Of a DNA stretch of 64,000 nucleotides, positions 3,328 to 14,351 are shown one piece after another. The translations under genes were made by a program, and so were the position numbers. The notes beneath the pieces are model-generated. The model did no database searches, was not told the DNA's origin, and saw only the letters and a list, made by a program, of their open reading frames with translations. Numbering within the stretch: the stretch's first letter is position 1; each line of letters starts with the position of its first letter. The stretch is from assembly GCF_900107855.1 (NCBI RefSeq), contig NZ_FNRJ01000006.1:1-64000 (forward strand), given 5' to 3'. The stretch is from Marinobacterium iners DSM 11526 (GTDB lineage: Bacteria > Pseudomonadota > Gammaproteobacteria > Pseudomonadales > Balneatricaceae).

Positions 3328-4581
<1,254 letters not shown>

Positions 4582-4595
4582 TCAAGGAGAGTCCC

Positions 4596-5447
4596 ATGAC
4601 TCAAGCAGCCCCCGAGCTGGTCGCCAGCAACAAATGCTTTGACGGTTGGCTCAAGCGCTACAAACACAGTTCGACGACGACCGGCACGGAGATGGTGTTT
4701 GCCATCTACCTGCCACCGCAGGCACAAACGCAGCCGGTACCGGTACTGTACTGGCTGTCGGGCCTGACCTGTACGGATGAGAACTTCATGCAGAAAGCCG
4801 GTGCCCAACGCGTTGCCGCCGAACTGGGCGTCGCCATTGTTGCGCCGGATACCAGTCCGCGTGGAACCGACTTGCCCGGCGAGCATGACAGCTACGATTT
4901 CGGCTCCGGTGCCGGTTTTTATGTGAATGCGACCGAGACGCCCTGATCTGCTCACTATCGCATGTACGATTATGTGACCGACGAGCTGCCGGCACTGATC
5001 GAACAGCATTTTCCGGTAACCCAAAAACGCGCCATCAGTGGCCACTCCATGGGTGGTCACGGTGCGCTGATCTGTGCTTTGAAGAATCCGGGCCGATATG
5101 TATCGGTATCGGCTTTCGCGCCGATCAGTAATCCGATCAACTGCCCGTGGGGCGAAAAGGCGTTTTCAGGCTATCTGGGCACTGATCGCGAAGCATGGAA
5201 AGCCTGGGACAGCTGTGAACTGATCGCAACCGCGAAAGAACGGCTGCCGATTCTGGTGGATCAGGGCGAGGCGGATGATTTCCTGCAGGAACAGCTCAAG
5301 CCGGAAGCGCTGAAAGCAGCCTGTGCGTCGGCGGGACATCCGCTGGAGCTGCGCATGCGCCCCGGTTATGACCACAGCTACTTCTTCATCGCCAGCTTTA
5401 TCGGAGACCACCTGCGCCATCATGCCCGGGCGCTGGGCCTGGGCTGA
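4596..5447 (+). pseudogene. fghA: S-formylglutathione hydrolase with in-frame TGA
   Basis: Would hydrolyse S-formylglutathione to formate and glutathione, completing the frmA pathway. The reading frame is intact except for one TGA at 4944-4946 (codon 117), where the family has Trp (after NATETP, before the HYRMYDY segment). If that codon were TGG, the product would be a normal 283-aa esterase with the nucleophile Ser in GHSMGG (about residue 151) and the YDHSYFF histidine. As written only a 116-aa fragment or an N-terminally truncated product could be made. It may be a real nonsense mutation, a sequencing error, or low-level readthrough. ATG at 4596 follows AAGGAGAG. Confidence 0.88.
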
Positions 5448-5468: not shown

Positions 5469-5505
5469 AAAAACGCCGACCCGTGCAAGCCAGTCGGCGT
5501 TTTTC
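5469..5505. terminator. Bidirectional terminator after fghA
   Basis: Inverted repeat AACGCCGAC / GTCGGCGTT flanked by an A run on the left and a T run on the right, so it can act on both strands. The same element, with different loop sequence, follows the second fghA copy at about 14361. Confidence 0.8.
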
Positions 5506-5524
5506 GTACGCTTTCGCGTGACGC

Positions 5525-5700
5525 TTAGAGCGCTGCCAGTACCGCTTCAGCGCCGCTAGTCTCGACTAGTCTTTCTCGTCCACGTTCAGCAACTCAACCA
5601 CACCGTCGTTGACGATCATTGCGTAGCGCTGGCTGCGCTTGCCAAACTGGATACCGGCCAGGTCCAGGTCCAGCTTCAGACCCAGAGCCGACGCGCCAGC
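5525..5700 (-). pseudogene. Decayed C-terminal end of a peroxiredoxin gene
   Basis: The minus strand encodes recognisable Prx C-terminal sequence (GIQFGKRSQRYAMIVNDG, then ELLNVDEK) matching the end of the intact peroxiredoxin at 14425-14901. A short insertion then shifts the frame before the terminal VLAAL-like residues. Nothing N-terminal of about residue 105 remains; at about 5690-5700 the sequence runs into the LysR remnant across a few shared bases. It is much more diverged from its intact partner than the two fghA copies are from each other. Confidence 0.75.
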
Positions 5701-5955
5701 AGCGAAGAATCTTTCAACGTGCCCATGCGCACGGCCAGGTCATAGCCTCCGGTAATCAGAACCGTCTGGCGGTTGGTCAGGTACAGGTCGAGGCTGATTT
5801 CGGGCATTGCTCATGAAGTCGTTGAACTGGGGCGCCAGAAAGCGTTCACCGAAGGTGATGGCACAGGTGATGCGCAACTTGCCGGAGGGTTCGGATTGGA
5901 AACGGCCTTCCTGAACCACAGCCACATAGGCCTCGATTGCATTCCGCCGCCGCAT
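5690..5955 (-). pseudogene. Decayed second copy of the LysR regulator
   Basis: Clear homology to the LysR gene at 2421-3305: N-terminus MRRRNAIEAYVAVVQEG, then a deletion of roughly 190 nt that removes most of the helix-turn-helix. The sequence resumes at SEPSGKLRITC and the GERFLAPQ segment, then shifts frame and stops matching. It lies on the minus strand just before the accessory island, the same position and orientation relative to its neighbours as the intact copy has to frmA. Confidence 0.8.
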
Positions 5956-6160: not shown

Positions 6161-7819
6161 ATGGATTCATTAAAAAGCCTTCTAGGCCACCCGCTACTGG
6201 AAGACGAGATTCTGGACAAAACCGAAGAGGGCAGAATCTATCTTCTCAATCAACGCATGCTGTTACTCCATGGCTATTCCTTAGCCAACCTGCGACGTGA
6301 GTTCATCGAACACGCCGGGCTCAAAACCACCCGGGAGATATTCACAAGACTGGGCTACCAGCAGGGTGCCGAAGATGCTTTGAAGCTTAAGCAGAAGGGG
6401 GTCAAGGATCTGGATGAACTTTTCTATTACGGCCCCAAGATCCGGGAGATGGAGGGTTTCGTACTGAACCGTGCTGTAGAACGGATGCAGTACGATGAGG
6501 ACACAGGCAAATTCTGGGGTGACTATATTTGGGAATCTTCCTGGGAGTCCAAGGCCCATCTGGAGCACCTTGGCGTCAGTGGTTTTCCCGCCTGTTGGTT
6601 GATGACGGGATACGCATGCGGCTACACCACAACCGTGATGGGACGCCCCATTCTGTGGAAAGAGGTCGAATGCGTGGCCATGGGTCACAAGCATTGCCGG
6701 GTTGTCGGAGTACCTCTCGAAGATGAAGAGGACATCGGCGAACATCTCAGCTTCATGCGGATAGAAGAGTTCGTCTCACCACCGAAGTCCAGCAGATGCT
6801 TGCAATTAGAGAGGTTACAGGCCGACGACAGCGAGACAGTCCTGCCCGATATCATCGGTTCATCACGCCAATTTAATGAGGTGGCCACACAATTAAAAAA
6901 AGTAGCGGTGACCAACTCTACCGTGTTGTTGATGGGTGAAAGCGGGGTTGGAAAGGAGCGATTCGCTCGCGCTCTACACTCCATCAGCAAACGTTCTGAC
7001 GGCCCCTTTGTCTCAGTTAACTGTGCGGCAATACCCGCTGATCTGGTGGAATCCGAACTATTTGGTGTGGAAAAAGGAGCCTTCACCGGCGCTGTCGAAT
7101 CCCGTCCGGGGCGCTTCGAGCGTGCTCACGGCGGCACATTGTTTCTTGATGAGATCAGCAGCTTACCCCTGGAAGCACAGGGCAAACTGCTGCGCGTACT
7201 CCAGGAGAGGGAGATCGAGCGAGTAGGCGGAACCAATACCAAAAAGGTCAACGTGAGAATCGTGGCCGCCGCCAACACCAACCTGTCAGAGGATGTGTTG
7301 CATGGCAAGTTCAGATCCGACCTCTACTACCGAATCAATATTTTCCCGGTGAAGATTCCACCGCTAAGGGAGCGAAAGGGCGATATCGCCTTGCTGGTCA
7401 ACCTGTTTATCAACCGCTTTGCCAATGAAATAGACAAGCATATTACCGGCATTTCAAGAAAGGCATTTACCCGGCTACTTAACCATGAGTGGCCCGGAAA
7501 TGTACGAGAATTGGAAAACGTCTGTGAGCGCGCGGTTATTCTTGCGGAAAATGACGGCAACATCGACATCCATCATCTGATGATCGACAACGACGATATC
7601 GCACTGGCTCAGAGCCATACACCGAACCCGATCACACAAGAATCTGCGATCGACCACCTGATCTCCAGCATTAATTCCTTCGATGAGATCGAAGACCTGA
7701 TACTAAAACATGCCCTTGAGCGCAATGACGGCAACGTATCGGCTGCCGCACGATACCTGAACTTAAGACGGGGCCAGTTTGAGTACCGACTGAAAAAGCA
7801 TCAGAATGCCGACAACTAA
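6161..7819 (+). CDS. DmpR/XylR-type sigma-54-dependent aromatic sensor-activator
   Basis: A 552-aa activator with the full DmpR layout: XylR_N/V4R sensor domain (about 1-205), linker, AAA+ domain (about 232-465) and Fis-type helix-turn-helix (about 510-547). Walker A is GESGVGKE (259-266), the sigma-54 contact loop GAFTGA (306-311), Walker B FLDE (328-331). The four sensor zinc ligands known from MopR/DmpR are kept (C145, E168, C171, C179). The aromatic-pocket Trp of the IDSFEVE-like segment appears as W124. The His of the GPQLH motif that contacts phenol in DmpR/MopR is Arg here (GPKIR, R95), suggesting a different effector. Its base composition is more AT-rich than the flanking core genes. 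Likely controls the units starting near 9164 and 13038. Confidence 0.9.
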
Positions 7820-7873
7820 GCCTATCCCACCCGAAGAAAACCGCTACAAGTGCCGCATTACACGTAATGCTGT

Positions 7874-8095
7874 TCACTTAAGCGGAGCAACTTTTCGGTT
7901 CACGGGATAGCGGGTTTCGGAAATCTTGACCGCCCTCGGCCTTGAGGAGCGAGAACGGTTATCCAGAAACAGGCTGGCCACTCCAGCTCTCAGTTCCGAG
8001 AACCTTACTCCCGTTCTCGATACCGGCTGCGCAGCCGCCATCACGATTAACTGAGCCGCGATATATTGATAGGCCGGTTTAAGAGGGCTGCCCAA
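7874..8095 (-). pseudogene. C-terminal fragment of an IS transposase (IS4-like)
   Basis: A 73-residue frame with a basic tail (RSSRPRAVKISETRYPVNRK) of the kind seen at the C-terminus of some IS4-family transposases. Its stop codon lies inside the left terminal inverted repeat, as expected for a transposase ending at an IS border. The catalytic region is missing. The family call rests on recall of the tail and the inverted repeats. Confidence 0.5.
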
Positions 8096-8110
8096 CTCTG
8101 TCTTTTCAAA

Positions 8111-8479
8111 CTAATGGTCCGCCATTACCCCACTCTCAAGGAACTGGCGCAACAGTGACAAGACACTGCCGTCCGTGAGCCGTCGGCTGAACTGGCGGAT
8201 GATCAAGTCATGGTTTAACGTGTCGAAGTATTTCGACAGGTCCATGTCCACGATCCACTCACATCGATAACGACGAATAAACAGCGTCGCCTTGCCTATC
8301 GCGTGATGGCCACTGCGTCCCGGACGATACGACGGATGAAAGTCCGGACCAAAGATCGGTTCAATCAGGCTCTACCCATCGATTCCGGCCGCACCTCGGT
8401 TGAGTTTGACGTGTTTGAAGGCTTGATACAGACGCCGCATCGACAGCAACTGTCCGTAAAAACTGTAGTATTTCCTCAT
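8111..8479 (-). pseudogene. Truncated group II intron reverse transcriptase
   Basis: The frame begins MRKYYSFYGQ and contains the intron-RT opening (YQAFKHVKLNRGAAGIDG). A TAG stop follows at codon 36, with an apparent small internal deletion. The frame resumes with YRPGRSGHHA and WIVDMDLSKYFDTLNHDLL-like residues (RT blocks up to the first catalytic Asp). It ends at codon 123, before the YADD motif, maturase and endonuclease regions. The product would be inactive. Confidence 0.85.
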
Positions 8480-8917
8480 ACCTGCTCAGCTTTAGGATGA
8501 CGACTCCGGTCGTTCCGGTTTTATCCTCCATACTGTTGCCAGGCTTCTCAGGCGGGAACTTCATCACTACTACAGCTTCATCTGCCACCTCACACCCGCT
8601 GTGGCCTTGGCTTTTACCTTGAGCCTCAACGTCCGGTCGGGCCGGATAGAGTGTCAGGCTTCCCCGGTTACTGCACCGGCTCCCTGTCAACGATTCCACC
8701 CTCAAGCACAGCACAGGTCTGACCGAGTATCGGGCTTCGCGCTATTTTGCACGCTTACCCACCTGCACTGCCGAAGTAGGTTCACTTGCGTTGTGTACCG
8801 TTAACCTCCTATGGCTTCCTTCAGACCCTGCCGTTGGCCAGCAACACCCTTGCCAACCGGGTTGTCTTCCCCTCAGTCAGGGCGACTCCTCCTTTTTGCC
8901 GGCTTCACCGGGCAAAC
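8480..8917 (-). ncRNA. 5' ribozyme part of a group II intron (probably IIC)
   Basis: About 440 nt lie between the RT start and a GTTTGCCCGGTG boundary at about 8917, the size expected for the intron sequence before the RT. The boundary falls directly after a terminator hairpin and its T run read in the same direction, which is the known target preference of class C introns. Domains V and VI are absent because the element is cut after the RT fragment, so it cannot splice. Confidence 0.65.
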
Positions 8918-8918
8918 A

Positions 8919-8954
8919 AAAAATCCGGTATCCAATGAAGAATACCGGATTTTC
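8919..8954. terminator. Terminator hairpin used as the intron target
   Basis: Stem ATCCGGTAT/ATACCGGAT (8923-8931 and 8942-8950) with a 10-nt loop. On the minus strand it is followed by TTTTTT and then the presumed intron 5' end; on the plus strand by TTTTC. It lies inside the IS remnant near its right inverted repeat, where IS elements often block read-through from outside. Confidence 0.75.
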
Positions 8955-9137
8955 TTAGAGCCTTCGGTCAGCAGCAAGTCTTAACCGAACAGCATTACGC
9001 GGCTCTTTTTATTTTAGTTCTGATTTCAAGAAAACATTCTGTTTTTTTTCGTCATATAGAAAAACCTGCGTATTGAAAACACTTCGAAAATCACCTAAAT
9101 AAATTCAACTATTTGTTTTTAAACATTTATTCAATAC

Positions 9138-9153
9138 TGGCCTGCTAAATGCT
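9138..9153 (+). promoter_or_regulatory. Sigma-54 promoter of the lipoprotein-Rieske operon
   Basis: TGGCCTGCTAAATGCT fits the -24/-12 consensus TGGCACGNNNNTTGCW: TGGC, the G at position 7, TGC and the final W are kept, with the required 10 nt between GG and GC. A start site is expected near 9164, 30 nt before the lipoprotein ATG. The upstream stretch to 9000 is AT-rich and ends at the IS remnant. No convincing XylR/DmpR upstream site was found there. Confidence 0.6.
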
Positions 9154-9193
9154 TAGTCATGACTGTCAATAAAAATAAAGATAGACAGTCACT

Positions 9194-9706
9194 ATGCGTA
9201 CCCCAATAAGAAGAAAAGAGAACGCCGTTTCCTGGCTTCGACCGGGAAATCCCGCCCTCGTCACACTGACACTAGCAGCCATCTTGCTGCTGAGCGCTTG
9301 CGAAGCCCCACTGAATTTGACCGGTGTCGATGGCCTGGTGCTGTCCCGCACCATCGGCAGCGAGGCCTGCGCCGATAGCAGTGTAATCGCGCTGGGCTTT
9401 GACAAGCAGCTCTGGCGTAGCGATGACGATGGCACGAGCCGGCAGGCGCTCTCCACCCCCACCCTGGAGAACCTGCTCGACCTGACCTGCGCCCCCGATG
9501 GCCGCTATTGGGCCACCGGCCAGGCCCATCCGGATCACCATCTGCCGGTGAACAAAGACACCTGTGTGTCCATTGATGACTCGCTCACCATGGTCGATGT
9601 CCAGGCACAGCACTGCACCACTGGCCAGTTCAAAGGGATTGTCGACCCCGACATGAGCCCACAAGACAAGTTCACGGTGCAAAACATGCATAGCTCAGGC
9701 AACTAA
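9194..9706 (+). CDS. Unrecognised lipoprotein heading the Rieske operon
   Basis: A 170-aa protein with a signal peptide and a lipobox (LLLSAC, about residues 31-36), so probably membrane-anchored and facing the periplasm. Cysteines recur in the mature part (CAD, LTCAPDG, DTCVS, QHCTTG). A WATGQAHPDH stretch loosely recalls BNR/Ycf48-like blades, but the protein is too short for a full propeller, so it may be truncated. I do not recognise the family. It lies just after the sigma-54 promoter and 108 nt before the Rieske oxygenase, with a hairpin in that gap. Confidence 0.6.
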   Translation: MRTPIRRKENAVSWLRPGNPALVTLTLAAILLLSACEAPLNLTGVDGLVLSRTIGSEACADSSVIALGFDKQLWRSDDDGTSRQALSTPTLENLLDLTCAPDGRYWATGQAHPDHHLPVNKDTCVSIDDSLTMVDVQAQHCTTGQFKGIVDPDMSPQDKFTVQNMHSSGN

Positions 9707-9756
9707 ACAATAACGAATACCACCGGTCCCGTGGACATGGACAGCCCGAGACCTTT

Positions 9757-9791
9757 GAGAGGTGCTTGCACCAGTAACACCCCTCTTTTTT
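9757..9791 (+). terminator. Hairpin with T run between the lipoprotein and Rieske genes
   Basis: GAGAGGTG (9757-9764) and CACCCCTC (9778-9785) pair over 8 positions with one mismatch, followed by six T residues. It has the form of an intrinsic terminator or attenuator, and sits 10 nt before the Rieske ribosome binding site. If it works, it sets the ratio of lipoprotein to oxygenase transcript. Confidence 0.6.
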
Positions 9792-9814
9792 CAAATCCAA
9801 GACGAGGTTTAAAC

Positions 9815-10870
9815 ATGGAACTGATTAATAAGAAAGATACTTCATTTCTGAAGAACACCTGGTATGTGGCGGCACTCACAACCGAAATTGACGCCGACAC
9901 CATGCTCAGTCGAAAAATCATCGGCGAAACCCTGCTGTTTTACCGCAAACAGAATGGCGAAGTGACCGCCATTCGCGACCGCTGCCCCCACCGATTTGCA
10001 CCGCTGAGCAAAGGGGTTCGCGATGGAGATGAAATCACCTGTAGTTACCATGGTCTGAAATTCAACTCAGACGGTCAGTGTACCCATAGCTCCCACGGCA
10101 GCGGAAAGATCCCTAAAGCATGTAAGGTTCGCAGTTTCCCGGTGGAGGAGCGGGACGGTTTTATCTGGATTTGGATGGGCAATCAGGAGAAAGCGGACAC
10201 TACCCAGATCATGGACTGTTCGATACTAAACCGTAAACCGGAAAGTGCCGTTGGCTACATCTACATGTACAACAAGTGCAACTACCAGCTGTTAACCGAC
10301 AACATCATGGACCTGAGCCATATCGATCACCTGCATGGACCGCTCATCAATACAAACGGCAAACTCAGCCCACTGCTACCCAAAGTAGAGGAGAACGGTT
10401 CTGTAGTCTCTGTACGCTGGGACTGGCTCGCCGAGCCTGCCATGCAACTGCTCGCGGTACATCTGGAGCGCCCAGAAGATCAGGCCAACCAGTTCTTCCA
10501 GGTCAACTGGCATGCCCCCTCCAACATGCACCTACAAGTAGCTGCGGTACAGGACAGCATGGACTACGAAAACGACGGGAGGATGCTCTATGACTACCAC
10601 ATCATGACTCCCGAATCGGAGTTCTCCACCCATTATTTCTTCGCCTCCGCCCGCAACTATTTGGAGGATGACGCCGAATACAACGCCGCCAAGATGGCCG
10701 GTATGAAGCAGGCGTTTGTCGAAGAGGATAAACCGATGATCGAAGCGCAACAGCAGGAGATGGGCGAGGCCGGTTTCTGGGAGCTGAACCCGATTCTGCT
10801 CTCCAGCGACGCAGGCGGTATCCGCGTACGTCGAAAGCTCGCCGAACTACTCGAAATCGAATCTGCTTAA
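9815..10870 (+). CDS. VanA-like Rieske non-heme iron oxygenase, catalytic subunit
   Basis: A 351-aa terminal oxygenase of the vanillate O-demethylase group. The Rieske [2Fe-2S] ligands are C57, H59, C76 and H79 (CPH...CSYH). The mononuclear iron ligands are H169 and H174 in DNIMDLSHIDHLH plus D332 in SSDAGG, with D166 as the likely bridging residue. Length matches VanA. The start is the ATG after GACGAGG (9801-9807); the in-frame extension to 9731 is discarded. The reductase partner follows 56 nt later. Related enzymes remove O- or N-methyl groups as formaldehyde or hydroxylate methyl groups. The substrate here is unknown; O-demethylation of a methoxylated aromatic is an inference from context. 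Confidence 0.9.
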   Translation: MELINKKDTSFLKNTWYVAALTTEIDADTMLSRKIIGETLLFYRKQNGEVTAIRDRCPHRFAPLSKGVRDGDEITCSYHGLKFNSDGQCTHSSHGSGKIPKACKVRSFPVEERDGFIWIWMGNQEKADTTQIMDCSILNRKPESAVGYIYMYNKCNYQLLTDNIMDLSHIDHLHGPLINTNGKLSPLLPKVEENGSVVSVRWDWLAEPAMQLLAVHLERPEDQANQFFQVNWHAPSNMHLQVAAVQDSMDYENDGRMLYDYHIMTPESEFSTHYFFASARNYLEDDAEYNAAKMAGMKQAFVEEDKPMIEAQQQEMGEAGFWELNPILLSSDAGGIRVRRKLAELLEIESA

Positions 10871-10926
10871 ACAGACCAAAGCCTGGTCACTATAAGGGCC
10901 AGGTTTTCACACCTGAGTGCACCATT

Positions 10927-11874
10927 ATGACGACCGAAGCCACAATAATTAAAAAAGAGACCATTGCCGACAACATCGTTCATCTGGTACTGGAAGACTG
11001 CCGGGGAAAAGGCTTTGCTCCCTTTGAACCCGGCGCCCATATCGACTTGCATATCGACGATAAGACGATTCGTCAGTACTCCTTGATCAATAGTCTCGAT
11101 GGTGGGCATACGTATGAGATCGCGATCCTGCGCGAGGCCAATGGCCGCGGCGGCTCCATCAAGGTACACGACACCCTGCAACCGGGTGACAAGGTCAAGG
11201 TCGGTCCGCCACGAAACGCCTTTCCTCTGCAACGATCCGATTTCTCGGTGCTGATAGCCGGCGGTATCGGCATTACGCCAATTATATCGATGGCCGATTA
11301 CCTGGAACACCAAGGCCAGCCCTTCACCCTGCACTACTGCACCCGTTCCGCTAAGGCTGCTGCACTGCGTGATCGTATCGAAAGCTCCACCTATGCCGAT
11401 CGCACACGATTCTATTTTGATGACCAAGCTATGCGCTTCGACCCCACCGCGCTTGAGATCGATATTCCAGACAAACGTCTCTATGTCTGCGGCCCCCAAG
11501 GCTTTATCGAGTTCATCAAGCGTAGCGCGGAGGAAGCGGGCTGGCCCAAAGAGCGTATCCACTATGAGTCATTTCAGAAGGCCGAGGGCGGTAAAACAGG
11601 GCACGGCAAGGCATTCACCCTCATCATCGACGGCACCGGTGACCAAGTTGAGGTTGCAGCAGATGAAACTGCCCTGGAAGCGCTTGAACGCAAAGGTTAT
11701 GAGATACCCTGCTCCTGTGAACAGGGGATCTGCGGTACCTGCATACTCGATGTTATTGCCGGCATTCCCGACCATCATGATGCATTCTTTACCGATAAGG
11801 AGCGACTGGAAAATCTTAGATTCACACCCTGTTGCTCACGCGCACTCACTCCTAGCTTGACAGTGAAACTCTGA
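10927..11874 (+). CDS. VanB-like oxygenase reductase (FMN, NAD, 2Fe-2S)
   Basis: A 315-aa phthalate dioxygenase reductase-type protein that passes electrons from NAD(P)H to the Rieske oxygenase. Order: flavin-binding domain with RQYSL (about residues 49-53), nucleotide-binding domain with AGGIGITP and YVCGPQGF, then a C-terminal plant-type ferredoxin with CSCEQGICGTC and a final Cys in TPCCSR. All four cluster cysteines are present. It is the expected redox partner of the preceding gene, and a terminator follows, so the operon is lipoprotein-oxygenase-reductase. Confidence 0.92.
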   Translation: MTTEATIIKKETIADNIVHLVLEDCRGKGFAPFEPGAHIDLHIDDKTIRQYSLINSLDGGHTYEIAILREANGRGGSIKVHDTLQPGDKVKVGPPRNAFPLQRSDFSVLIAGGIGITPIISMADYLEHQGQPFTLHYCTRSAKAAALRDRIESSTYADRTRFYFDDQAMRFDPTALEIDIPDKRLYVCGPQGFIEFIKRSAEEAGWPKERIHYESFQKAEGGKTGHGKAFTLIIDGTGDQVEVAADETALEALERKGYEIPCSCEQGICGTCILDVIAGIPDHHDAFFTDKERLENLRFTPCCSRALTPSLTVKL

Positions 11875-11921
11875 GCAAACTTGGTATCTACTTCGTTAAT
11901 TTTCCCGTCTGTACATATTTT

Positions 11922-11956
11922 AGCCGGAGCCAATCAGATAGTTCCGGCTCTTTTTT
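11922..11956 (+). terminator. Terminator of the Rieske operon
   Basis: AGCCGGA/TCCGGCT stem (11922-11928, 11943-11949) with a 14-nt loop, then C and six T residues. It closes the plus-strand operon before the convergent dioxygenase gene. Confidence 0.85.
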
Positions 11957-12056
11957 GTCTAACAACTTGTTAATAAAAACGGTAATTCAGATTTACGCAC
12001 CGGAAGAGAAGGCAACCAACCAACTGAGTGAGCCGATTGGTTGCGAAGAATGTGGA

Positions 12057-12977
12057 TCAGGTCAACACGCTGAGAAAAGCATCGTTGAGTACGCGATCAT
12101 GGTAGAAGATAGCCTTGCCGAGTTGCTCCGCATCCCAGGTAATCGGCTCATGGTCGGAGTAGAAGTAGTTACCACCAGCAAACACCTCATTGCGGTTGCC
12201 GGAGGGGTCAAAGAAATAAATAGTCTTGCCGTGGGTGATGCCATGGCGAGTCGGACCGATATCGATAGATGTATCGGTCATGGAAATCAGGTCGGCAGCA
12301 CGCAGCACTTCATCCCAAGACTCCAGCAGGAACGAGATGTGGTGCAATTTCCCCGGCTCCGGACACTCTATGAATGCAACATCGTGCGCTTTCATGCTAG
12401 AGGTCAAAAACGCGGCCACGCGGGTATCGCCATCCAAAACCTGTTCCACCAGATCGAAACCCAACACCTCGCGGAACAGGTCCACCGTACCGGCGATATT
12501 GGGACCATATAGCAAACAGTGATCCAGGCGCTGCGCTTTCATGCCCCTCAAGCCACGCGGCCAAGCTTCCGGGTTATGGTTGCTGACGCCCCAGCGACCG
12601 GTCTGCTCTTTGCTCGCGAACAGTTCGAATACATGGCCTGTGGGCGAGTCAAAACGCACACGACGTCCGCAACCGTTCAGTTCATTTTCGTGAATATCTT
12701 CAACCGTGCAGCCGTACTCAATCAGCTGCTGACGCAGAGTATCAACGGTGCTTTCGTTCAGGCACTTGTAACCGACAAAATCCAACCCAGGAACATCGGC
12801 TTCACGTAATACCAGAGAGAACTTGTCCACCTCGGTCCAAGCCTTAAGATAGACACGACCCTGCGGGTCTCGGTCCATTTCAATTAGACCCAGCACCTCG
12901 GTGTAGTGTTTAACTGCTTCATCCAGATCCAGTACGCGAATCTGCATATGTCCCGGTCTTAGTACGCCCTTTTTCAT
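12057..12977 (-). CDS. Catechol 2,3-dioxygenase (extradiol, XylE/DmpB type)
   Basis: Opens the ring of catechols next to the two hydroxyls (meta cleavage). Its 306 aa align almost end to end with remembered Xyl[16 protein letters not shown] at the start, [24 protein letters not shown], and the signature [21 protein letters not shown]. The iron ligands correspond to H153, H213 and E264. AAAAGGACA precedes the ATG. It converges on the Rieske operon and has its own sigma-54 promoter and upstream sites. No phenol hydroxylase, DmpQ-type ferredoxin or downstream meta-pathway genes are present in the window, so the product must be handled elsewhere. Confidence 0.96.
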
Positions 12978-13048: not shown

Positions 13049-13064
13049 AGCAATACTCATTCCA
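13049..13064 (-). promoter_or_regulatory. Sigma-54 promoter of catechol 2,3-dioxygenase
   Basis: On the minus strand, TGGAATGAGTATTGCT matches the -24/-12 consensus at 10 of 12 fixed positions, including both GG and TTGC with correct spacing. A start site near 13038 leaves a leader of about 60 nt before the dioxygenase ATG, with the ribosome site at about 12987. Confidence 0.72.
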
Positions 13065-13230: not shown

Positions 13231-13421
13231 TACCATCCCGATAAAGCGCCTTAATGCAATCACAACCAGCCCAGTGCAAAGCAAAACATTATTGCTGTAA
13301 TGAAAAAATCATTTCTTATCCGTTCTATATTCGATCATATCGGTTGAACTAGGAAAGCTGCGAATAAGTCCGCCGCGTGGGATAATGCCTACTGCATACG
13401 ATTAAGGACGCAGAGATAGAT

Positions 13422-13842
13422 CAGAAACTTACATTTGCTGACAGCGAGTTCAGCAACAAGCGCCGTCAGACCCGCAAGGAGAAATTTCTGGGCCGAATAG
13501 ATAAGTTGATCCCATGGACACGTCTCGAGGCCGTCATAAAGCCCCACGATCCCAAGGCCGGTAATGGCCGTCGGCCATACTCTTTTATCCACCATGCTTC
13601 GTATTCACTGCATGCAACAGTGGTATAACCTCAGTGATCCAGTCATTGAAGACGCACTGTACAAGATACCCTCAATACGGCTGTTTGCAGGCTGACACTG
13701 GATAAAGCGATCCCCGGTCACACCACCATTCTGAAGTTCCGGCATCTGCTCGAACGCCATGATATGGCCCAACAGGTTTTTGAAGAAGTGACTCAATGGC
13801 TATCTGAGATCGGTGTTCTTCTGAAAGAGGGCTCACTGGTTA
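13422..13842 (+). pseudogene. Frameshifted IS5-family transposase N-terminal remnant
   Basis: Three frames together give a typical IS5 transposase N-terminus: [10 protein letters not shown], then [21 protein letters not shown] and GRRPYS, then after a shift [23 protein letters not shown], then after another shift GHTTILKFRHLLERHDMAQQ and KEGSLV. It stops there, before the catalytic core, exactly where fghA-derived sequence begins. The junction marks a rearrangement at the right edge of the island. Confidence 0.85.
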
Positions 13843-14351
13843 ATACCAGTCCGCGTGGCACCGACCTGAGAAACCAATGTGACCGACGAGCTGCCGGCAC
13901 TGATCGAACAGCATTTTCCGGTAACCCAAAAACGCGCCATCAGTGGTCACTCCATGAGCGGCCACGGTGCGCTGATCTGTGCTTTGAAGAATCCGGGCCG
14001 ATATGTATCGGTATCGGCTTTCGCGCCGATCAGTAATCCGACCAACTGCCCCTGGGGCGAAAGGCGTTTTCAGGCTATCTGGGCACTGATCGCGAAGCAT
14101 GGAAAGCCTGGGACAGCTGTGAACTGATCGCAACCGCGAAAGAACGGCTGCCGATTCTGGTGGATCAGGGCGAGGCGGATGATTTCCTGCAGGAACAGCT
14201 CAAGCCGGAAGCACTGAAAGCAGCCTGTGCGTCGGCGGGGCACCCGCTGGAGCTGCGCCTGCAGCCGGGTTACGACCATAGCTACTTCTTCATCGCCAGC
14301 TTTATCGAAGACCACCTGCACCATCATGCCAGGGCGCTGATATCGGCCTGA
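13843..14351 (+). pseudogene. Truncated, frameshifted second copy of fghA
   Basis: Matches fghA from the TSPRGTDL codons, with about 95 nt missing after that, then follows the 3' half from the TDELPAL codons to the stop. By eye the long block (13877-14340) is about 95% identical to 4973-5436. It has a one-base loss in the AAAA of GGCGAAAAGG (near 14060) that shifts the frame, and GHSMGG has become GHSMSG. The 5' end is cut by the IS5 remnant. It cannot make an active hydrolase. Confidence 0.9.

Follow-up and report, generated by a model that had tools for sequence, protein, structure and literature searches.

A putative guaiacol-type O-demethylation module with its own DmpR-related sensor in Marinobacterium iners DSM 11526

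What compound is sensed, and what becomes of it, at a locus of Marinobacterium iners DSM 11526 where a DmpR-type activator stands with a Rieske oxygenase, its reductase and a catechol 2,3-dioxygenase (C23O)? The locus lies in the first 64 kb of its contig (NZ_FNRJ01000006.1; this whole stretch is referred to below as the window) in a genome of 3.92 Mb. An initial annotation had proposed here a DmpR-type sensor, a VanA/VanB-like pair and a C23O, and each of the four genes (reg, gdmA, gdmB and C23O) is indeed present, open and where it had been placed (6161-12977). We consider it quite probable that together they form an acquired, self-regulated catabolic module that demethylates a 2-methoxyphenol, with guaiacol the likeliest substrate, before cleaving the ring. 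The features of the module are the following:

6161..7819, + strand: DmpR/MobR-type sigma-54-dependent activator of 552 amino acids, R100-type, with Arg at DmpR position 100 (Pfam XylR_N, V4R, Sigma54_activat and HTH_8; clade and pocket columns)
7870..8930, - strand: group II intron remnant, outer limits approximate (Rfam RF02001 at 8675-8844)
9138..9153, + strand: sigma-54-type (-24/-12) motif of the gdm transcript, TGGCCTGCTAAATGCT (similar motif in loci L061 and L062, introduced below)
9194..9706, + strand: fused remnant open reading frame (ORF) of 170 amino acids (tblastn pieces; Pfam of the intact genes of locus L038)
9815..10870, + strand: gdmA-like Rieske O-demethylase, oxygenase subunit of 351 amino acids (Rieske and VanA_C; 7qwt match; GdmA clade)
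10927..11874, + strand: gdmB-like VanB-type reductase (NAD_binding_1 and C-terminal Fer2)
12057..12977, - strand: C23O (TIGR03211)
13049..13064, - strand: sigma-54-type motif of the C23O gene, TGGAATGAGTATTGCT (similar motif at all three loci)

The clearest indication of function comes from the oxygenase. O-demethylation is the chemistry of DdmC (dicamba) and VanA (vanillate), and a guaiacol O-demethylase, GdmAB, was reportedly described by Bleem et al. in 2022 from Cupriavidus necator N-1, Novosphingobium aromaticivorans F199 and Sphingomonas/Rhizorhabdus wittichii RW1. The closest solved structure to the window oxygenase is 7qwt (E 1.3e-116, DdmC being second to it at 7.8e-62), with which it shares 49% identity, and it is 48% identical to a gene on plasmid pBB1 of C. 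necator N-1. Entry 7QWT appears as GdmA of R. wittichii RW1 in a review table (PMC12445004), and GdmAB is given as guaiacol O-demethylase in statements of citing papers (PMC12997858, PMC11837543, PMC13288931). In a tree of 47 Rieske rows (L004 omitted as the same gene as L037; named VanA, LigX and TsaM proteins not among the rows), a GdmA clade of 14 with full support (100/100) includes the window protein, 7qwt and the C. necator N-1 plasmid gene, while DdmC and two other VanA-like proteins of the host fall outside it. The phylogeny that had been proposed as a check thus places the window protein with GdmA, away from DdmC, and in no clade with a known unrelated substrate. Judged by this relationship, it belongs to the already described GdmAB family, and the guaiacol-type O-demethylation predicted earlier gains support from both the clade and the catabolic gene context (meta-pathway, phenol hydroxylase or frm genes lie near some other gdmA genes). 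A VanB-type partner reductase is encoded directly downstream and is 44% identical to the neighbour of gdmA on pBB1. The Rieske C-x-H...C-x2-H motif and the 2-His-1-Asp ligands are intact (DdmC columns 49, 51, 68, 71, 157, 160, 165 and 294), a feature that is not GdmA-specific since these columns are kept in all 47 rows. The columns of DdmC Asn230 and Trp285, which we take to be contacts of the substrate carboxylate, hold Leu and Gly in the window protein, and in 7qwt they hold Leu and Ala. Such residues would suit a carboxylate-free substrate but say little, because neither Asn nor Trp occurs there in any of the 32 other non-DdmC rows outside the clade.

To see how far the gene arrangement extends, related genomes and plasmids were compared. 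GdmA-like proteins with an identity of at least 45% were present in 7 of 193 related genomes searched (own included); a plasmid search matched 707 records, of which the five best (H1-H5, at least 45% identity) were retained and contexts taken from H1, H2, H4 and H5, not H3. Context was thereby obtained for 13 clade members: the window, L061 (a Marinobacterium metagenome-assembled genome, MAG), L062 (Amphritea atlantica DSM 18887), L037-L042 and L031-L034 (L034 being Sphaerotilus). The regulator-Rieske-C23O linkage, for which a search of other genomes had been suggested, recurs in two of them: the gene order is lysR< reg> gdmA> gdmB> <C23O frmA> frmB> in L061, where the block lies inside the frm locus, and reg> gdmA> gdmB> <C23O in L062. 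With four genes in identical order in the Marinobacterium MAG and Amphritea, a chance assembly is ruled out. Across the 13 loci, C23O is directly adjacent at three (L038 has one about 9 kb off, cut by the locus edge), a VanB-type reductase is found at 11 (not at L037, and L042 ends with its contig), and frmA lies within about 10 kb of gdmA at four (window, L061, L033 and L034). R100-type regulators accompany nine (window, L061, L062, L037, L038, L039, L040, L041 and L034), drawn from five genera (the host's own, those of G080, of G076/G098/G110 and of G057, and Sphaerotilus); at L037 the regulator is 3.4 kb from gdmA with other genes between. The loci L031 (where a regulator of the His100 type stands), L032, L033 and L042 yielded none.

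The window C23O scores 422.5 bits against a TIGR03211 cut-off of 320.2, and it is 88% (L061) and 85% (L062) identical to the C23O beside gdmB, as opposed to 52-75% for the other four C23O genes of the host. The lack of a hydroxylase stressed in the initial annotation holds for the module, not for the genome, which has phenol hydroxylase clusters at two places besides its five C23O genes (the window's included) and dmpG-type aldolases above cut-off at three. Since no match to a proteobacterial catechol 1,2-dioxygenase was found in the host genome and meta-pathway genes are present, catechol would take meta cleavage. Within the GdmA clade the window protein belongs to a group of six rows (92/94, short of the starred level) whose sister group holds 7qwt. 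Diverged gdmA paralogues occur in pairs in two genomes (L039 and L062 in G076; L037 and L038 in G057), every one of these loci with its own R100-type regulator. Both observations would suit a reading in which the same machinery prefers another compound (e.g. 4-methylguaiacol, 2-ethoxyphenol, 3-methoxycatechol or veratrole) and the C23O acts on the matching catechol. We regard this as a possible but distinctly less favoured alternative, given a C23O well over its cut-off that adjoins gdmAB in three loci; where the substrate is another 2-methoxyphenol, it is nested in the explanation preferred here.

The next question is what the activator responds to. Its best NCBIfam model is MobR (526 bits, under the model cut-off of 999). 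According to PMC7264223, His100 and Trp128 of DmpR hold the phenol hydroxyl between them, and the residue at position 100 of XylR is Tyr. The sensor of the window was correctly recognized as altered: Arg replaces His100 and Trp replaces Phe170 (DmpR numbering). We compared it in an alignment of 63 regulators, nine of them gdm-linked (at each locus, the regulator most similar to that of the window) and 54 others, namely 48 XylR_N regulators of relatives (29 with top scores, 19 with low ones), two from the host itself (C47 and C11), CapR/DmpR, and the His100-type regulators of L031, L034 and L038. Left out were L093 among 30 top-scoring (short frame), L125 among 20 low-scoring (no usable row) and the host's C34 activator, which has no N-terminal domain. 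Position 100, the His of DmpR-type phenol sensors, is Arg in the window regulator and in the eight other gdm-linked ones alike, and His (48), Thr (3) or Asp (3) in the remaining 54; position 170 is Trp in seven and Ala in two of the linked set, and Phe (50) or Tyr (4) in the others. Neither Arg100 nor Trp/Ala170 occurs in any of these 54, including the three that reside at gdmA loci. Retained in all nine are Trp128, Tyr155 and the Zn-ligand columns (149, 172, 175 and 183 by our own count), with an exact GAFTGA in seven. The nine form a single clade (100/99), and the presence of Arg100 throughout it makes the altered sensor a shared, inherited trait of many gdm loci. In a XylR_N search eight of the linked regulators scored 70-89 bits, below nearly all matches, with G097, G175 and G116 also low. 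The linked regulators are not the weakest complete XylR_N matches, as G175 and G116 score lower.

An ordinary phenol sensor that happens to stand beside gdmAB would be compatible with the DmpR family assignment, with the two phenol hydroxylase clusters of the genome and with the His100-type regulators that also occur within 10 kb of gdmA at L031, L034 and L038. This seems very improbable to us, as the R100 clade stands beside gdmA in nine loci of five genera, the His that contacts the phenol hydroxyl is missing in nine of nine, and the host has two other XylR_N regulators, one of them by the phenol hydroxylase cluster on C47. Instead we favour, albeit with moderate confidence, the view that the R100 regulators linked to gdmA make up an effector class of their own within the DmpR/XylR family, i.e. 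dedicated sensors of guaiacol-type methoxyphenols in which Arg100 and Trp/Ala170 replace His100 and Phe170, and which travel with GdmAB (at three loci also with C23O) as a portable self-regulated module. The novel part of the locus looks to be the regulator, with a sensor clade worth testing. The claim that no such module had been described does not hold for the enzyme system, GdmAB being known; it may stand for the combination, as no description of the R100-type sensor clade or of the full regulator-GdmAB-C23O set was found in the open-access papers searched.

Control by this activator was assessed through promoter motifs, using a rule that requires GG-N10-GC and at least five of seven further consensus letters (a score devised for this analysis). 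The motif is present upstream of both the gdm and the C23O transcripts in the window, L061 and L062, that is in six of six regions of 150 nucleotides, with an expectation of 0.046 per region at the window's own rate. A looser pattern is commoner in the window than in shuffles (41 vs 23.6), an excess for which the rate used allows. The distance from the gdm motif to an ATG aligned among the three loci is 56-59 nucleotides (57-59 in L061 and L062). In the window this ATG starts the 170-amino-acid ORF; in L061 and L062 it opens short reading frames, 45 and 60 codons long. The gdmA gene follows the motif at about 345 nucleotides in those two loci and at 677 in the window. The C23O motif lies 82-90 nucleotides upstream of its gene at all three, so that the separate promoter predicted for C23O is supported by a conserved sigma-54-type candidate. 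The paired motifs would fit joint control by the adjacent activator. As a separate observation, an inverted repeat (ACTGTC...GACAGT) is found at 9162-9189, just 5' of the first ATG of the gdm transcript, and at the same place in L061 and L062.

The module is accessory and was acquired. A same-species genome (G193) is without the insert: its match to the window runs past the start of frmB as far as about 5435 (98.6%) and resumes at 13877 (98.4% over 8.1 kb). No GdmA-like protein above 33% identity was found by protein search in it or in six congeners, and a core status of the module in the species is thereby ruled out. When the insert was searched at the DNA level, the gdmA stretch gave no match longer than 27 bases among the candidates scored (40 of 43-65 per genome, six genomes). 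The G+C content of the insert is 51%, vs 57% for the window. Its surroundings comprise the following features:

3466..4581, + strand: frmA, S-(hydroxymethyl)glutathione dehydrogenase, resident (TIGR02818, 737.7 bits, cut-off 543.95)
4596..5447, + strand: frmB, S-formylglutathione hydrolase, resident, with an in-frame TGA at 4944-4946
5469..5673, - strand: end of a peroxiredoxin (prx) gene of non-resident type, 79% to the same-species genome (left edge of the insert)
5683..5903, - strand: lysR fragment of non-resident type, about 80% (left edge of the insert)
13349..13848, + strand: remnant of a repeated element (transposase gene), matched repeatedly and mostly at 75-90% in genomes of the same genus (right edge of the insert)
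13843..14340, + strand: frmB fragment (95-96% to the same-species genome)

These remnants, the unlike prx end and lysR piece on the left and the repeated element (presumably of IS5 type, a provisional label) with a resident-like frmB fragment on the right, mark an insertion beside the resident frm genes. In L061 lysR likewise adjoins the regulator, and the lysR-module-frm order there suggests that the donor block was already in an frm locus. A Campbell-type integration of a circle via a crossover at frmB is possible and would account for the succession of frmB, the unlike prx end, the unlike lysR, the module, the frmB fragment and prx; on the other hand, a frmB fragment 95% resident-like needs gene conversion or a nearby crossover. 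Pieces of the group II intron family match at 89-93% at three places in G193, so that resident elements probably hit the module after its arrival. The ORF at 9194-9706 is a fusion in which the N-terminal portion of a YCF48-like lipoprotein runs into the C-terminal portion of a DUF1329 protein. At L038 the intact YCF48 and DUF1329 genes flank an MMPL and a DUF1302 gene, and this row lies immediately upstream of the regulator and gdmAB. An ordinary 170-amino-acid lipoprotein is thereby ruled out, and the ORF has the appearance left by an internal deletion in a YCF48-MMPL-DUF1302-DUF1329 row.

Taken together, the intron remnant, the fused ORF, the repeated-element remnant and the broken frm copies raise the question of a decaying import, in which the genes are open and poorly expressed owing to the intron remnant, the deletions and the interrupted frmB. 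We consider this unlikely: all four genes of the module are open, neither sigma-54-type motif has been lost, and the proteins have been under constraint since the split from Marinobacterium. The nonsynonymous and silent differences relative to the latter (pN/pS) are 0.125/0.745 for reg, 0.113/0.646 for gdmA, 0.195/0.725 for gdmB and 0.073/0.727 for C23O, with silent sites near saturation, and the constraint covers the whole branch, beyond the time spent in the host.

The removal of formaldehyde by the adjacent frm system, as proposed earlier, holds in part. The frmA gene is intact, whereas the gene with the in-frame TGA is the only full-length frmB match of the genome, all remaining matches belonging to a single fragment (13.84-14.34 kb). 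At this codon the frame is open in the same-species genome, and a sequencing error at 4944-4946 is possible. The formaldehyde part of the earlier reading is therefore weaker than claimed.

In the proposed scheme, the DmpR-type activator would sense a 2-methoxyphenol (most likely guaiacol) and act with sigma-54 RNA polymerase to switch on two divergent transcripts. GdmB would hand electrons from NAD(P)H to GdmA, which would hydroxylate the methoxy group, releasing formaldehyde and leaving catechol; C23O would then open the ring, and the host meta pathway would complete the breakdown. Several observations weigh against this scheme. The oxygenase is 49% identical to the enzyme of known structure and belongs to a sister sub-clade that is not starred, the replacement of the two DdmC residues is of little help, and the paralogue pairs in two genomes imply that substrates may have diverged. 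Contrary to the initial annotation, the Rieske pair does not come right after the regulator, as the intron remnant and the fused ORF intervene. Four of the 13 loci are without an R100-type regulator (one being cut by a contig end), and frmB is interrupted in this assembly.

Guaiacol-like phenols occur in lignin and smoke, and a compact module with its own sensor would serve as a guaiacol biosensor and pathway cassette. The R100 clade would provide a sharp and cheap test of effector change in DmpR-family sensors, and the locus an example of a catabolic block entering the chromosome next to genes that deal with its toxic by-product.

Compared with known systems, the locus shares with GdmAB a two-component Rieske O-demethylase, a VanB-type reductase and the fully supported clade of 7QWT. 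It has in addition a DmpR relative of the R100 type and a C23O gene preceded by a separate sigma-54-type motif. On pBB1 of C. necator N-1, frmA and frmB homologues follow directly 3' of the gdmA-like gene (which we infer to be the characterised N-1 gene), but no regulator of the R100 type was found in the 9 kb next to it. In the GdmAB host F199, unlike in the window module, catechol goes by 1,2-cleavage, as stated in PMC11837543. With DdmC and VanA the window oxygenase has the Rieske and VanA_C domains in common, DdmC lying outside the GdmA clade. The regulator resembles DmpR, MopR and MobR in domain order (XylR_N-V4R-AAA-Fis), Zn-ligand columns, Trp128 and GAFTGA, and differs from them in its two pocket replacements, in its separate clade and in adjoining a Rieske demethylase rather than a phenol hydroxylase. 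Overall, the locus is new in composition, combining an R100-type regulator, GdmAB, C23O and paired sigma-54-type motifs, sometimes with frm.

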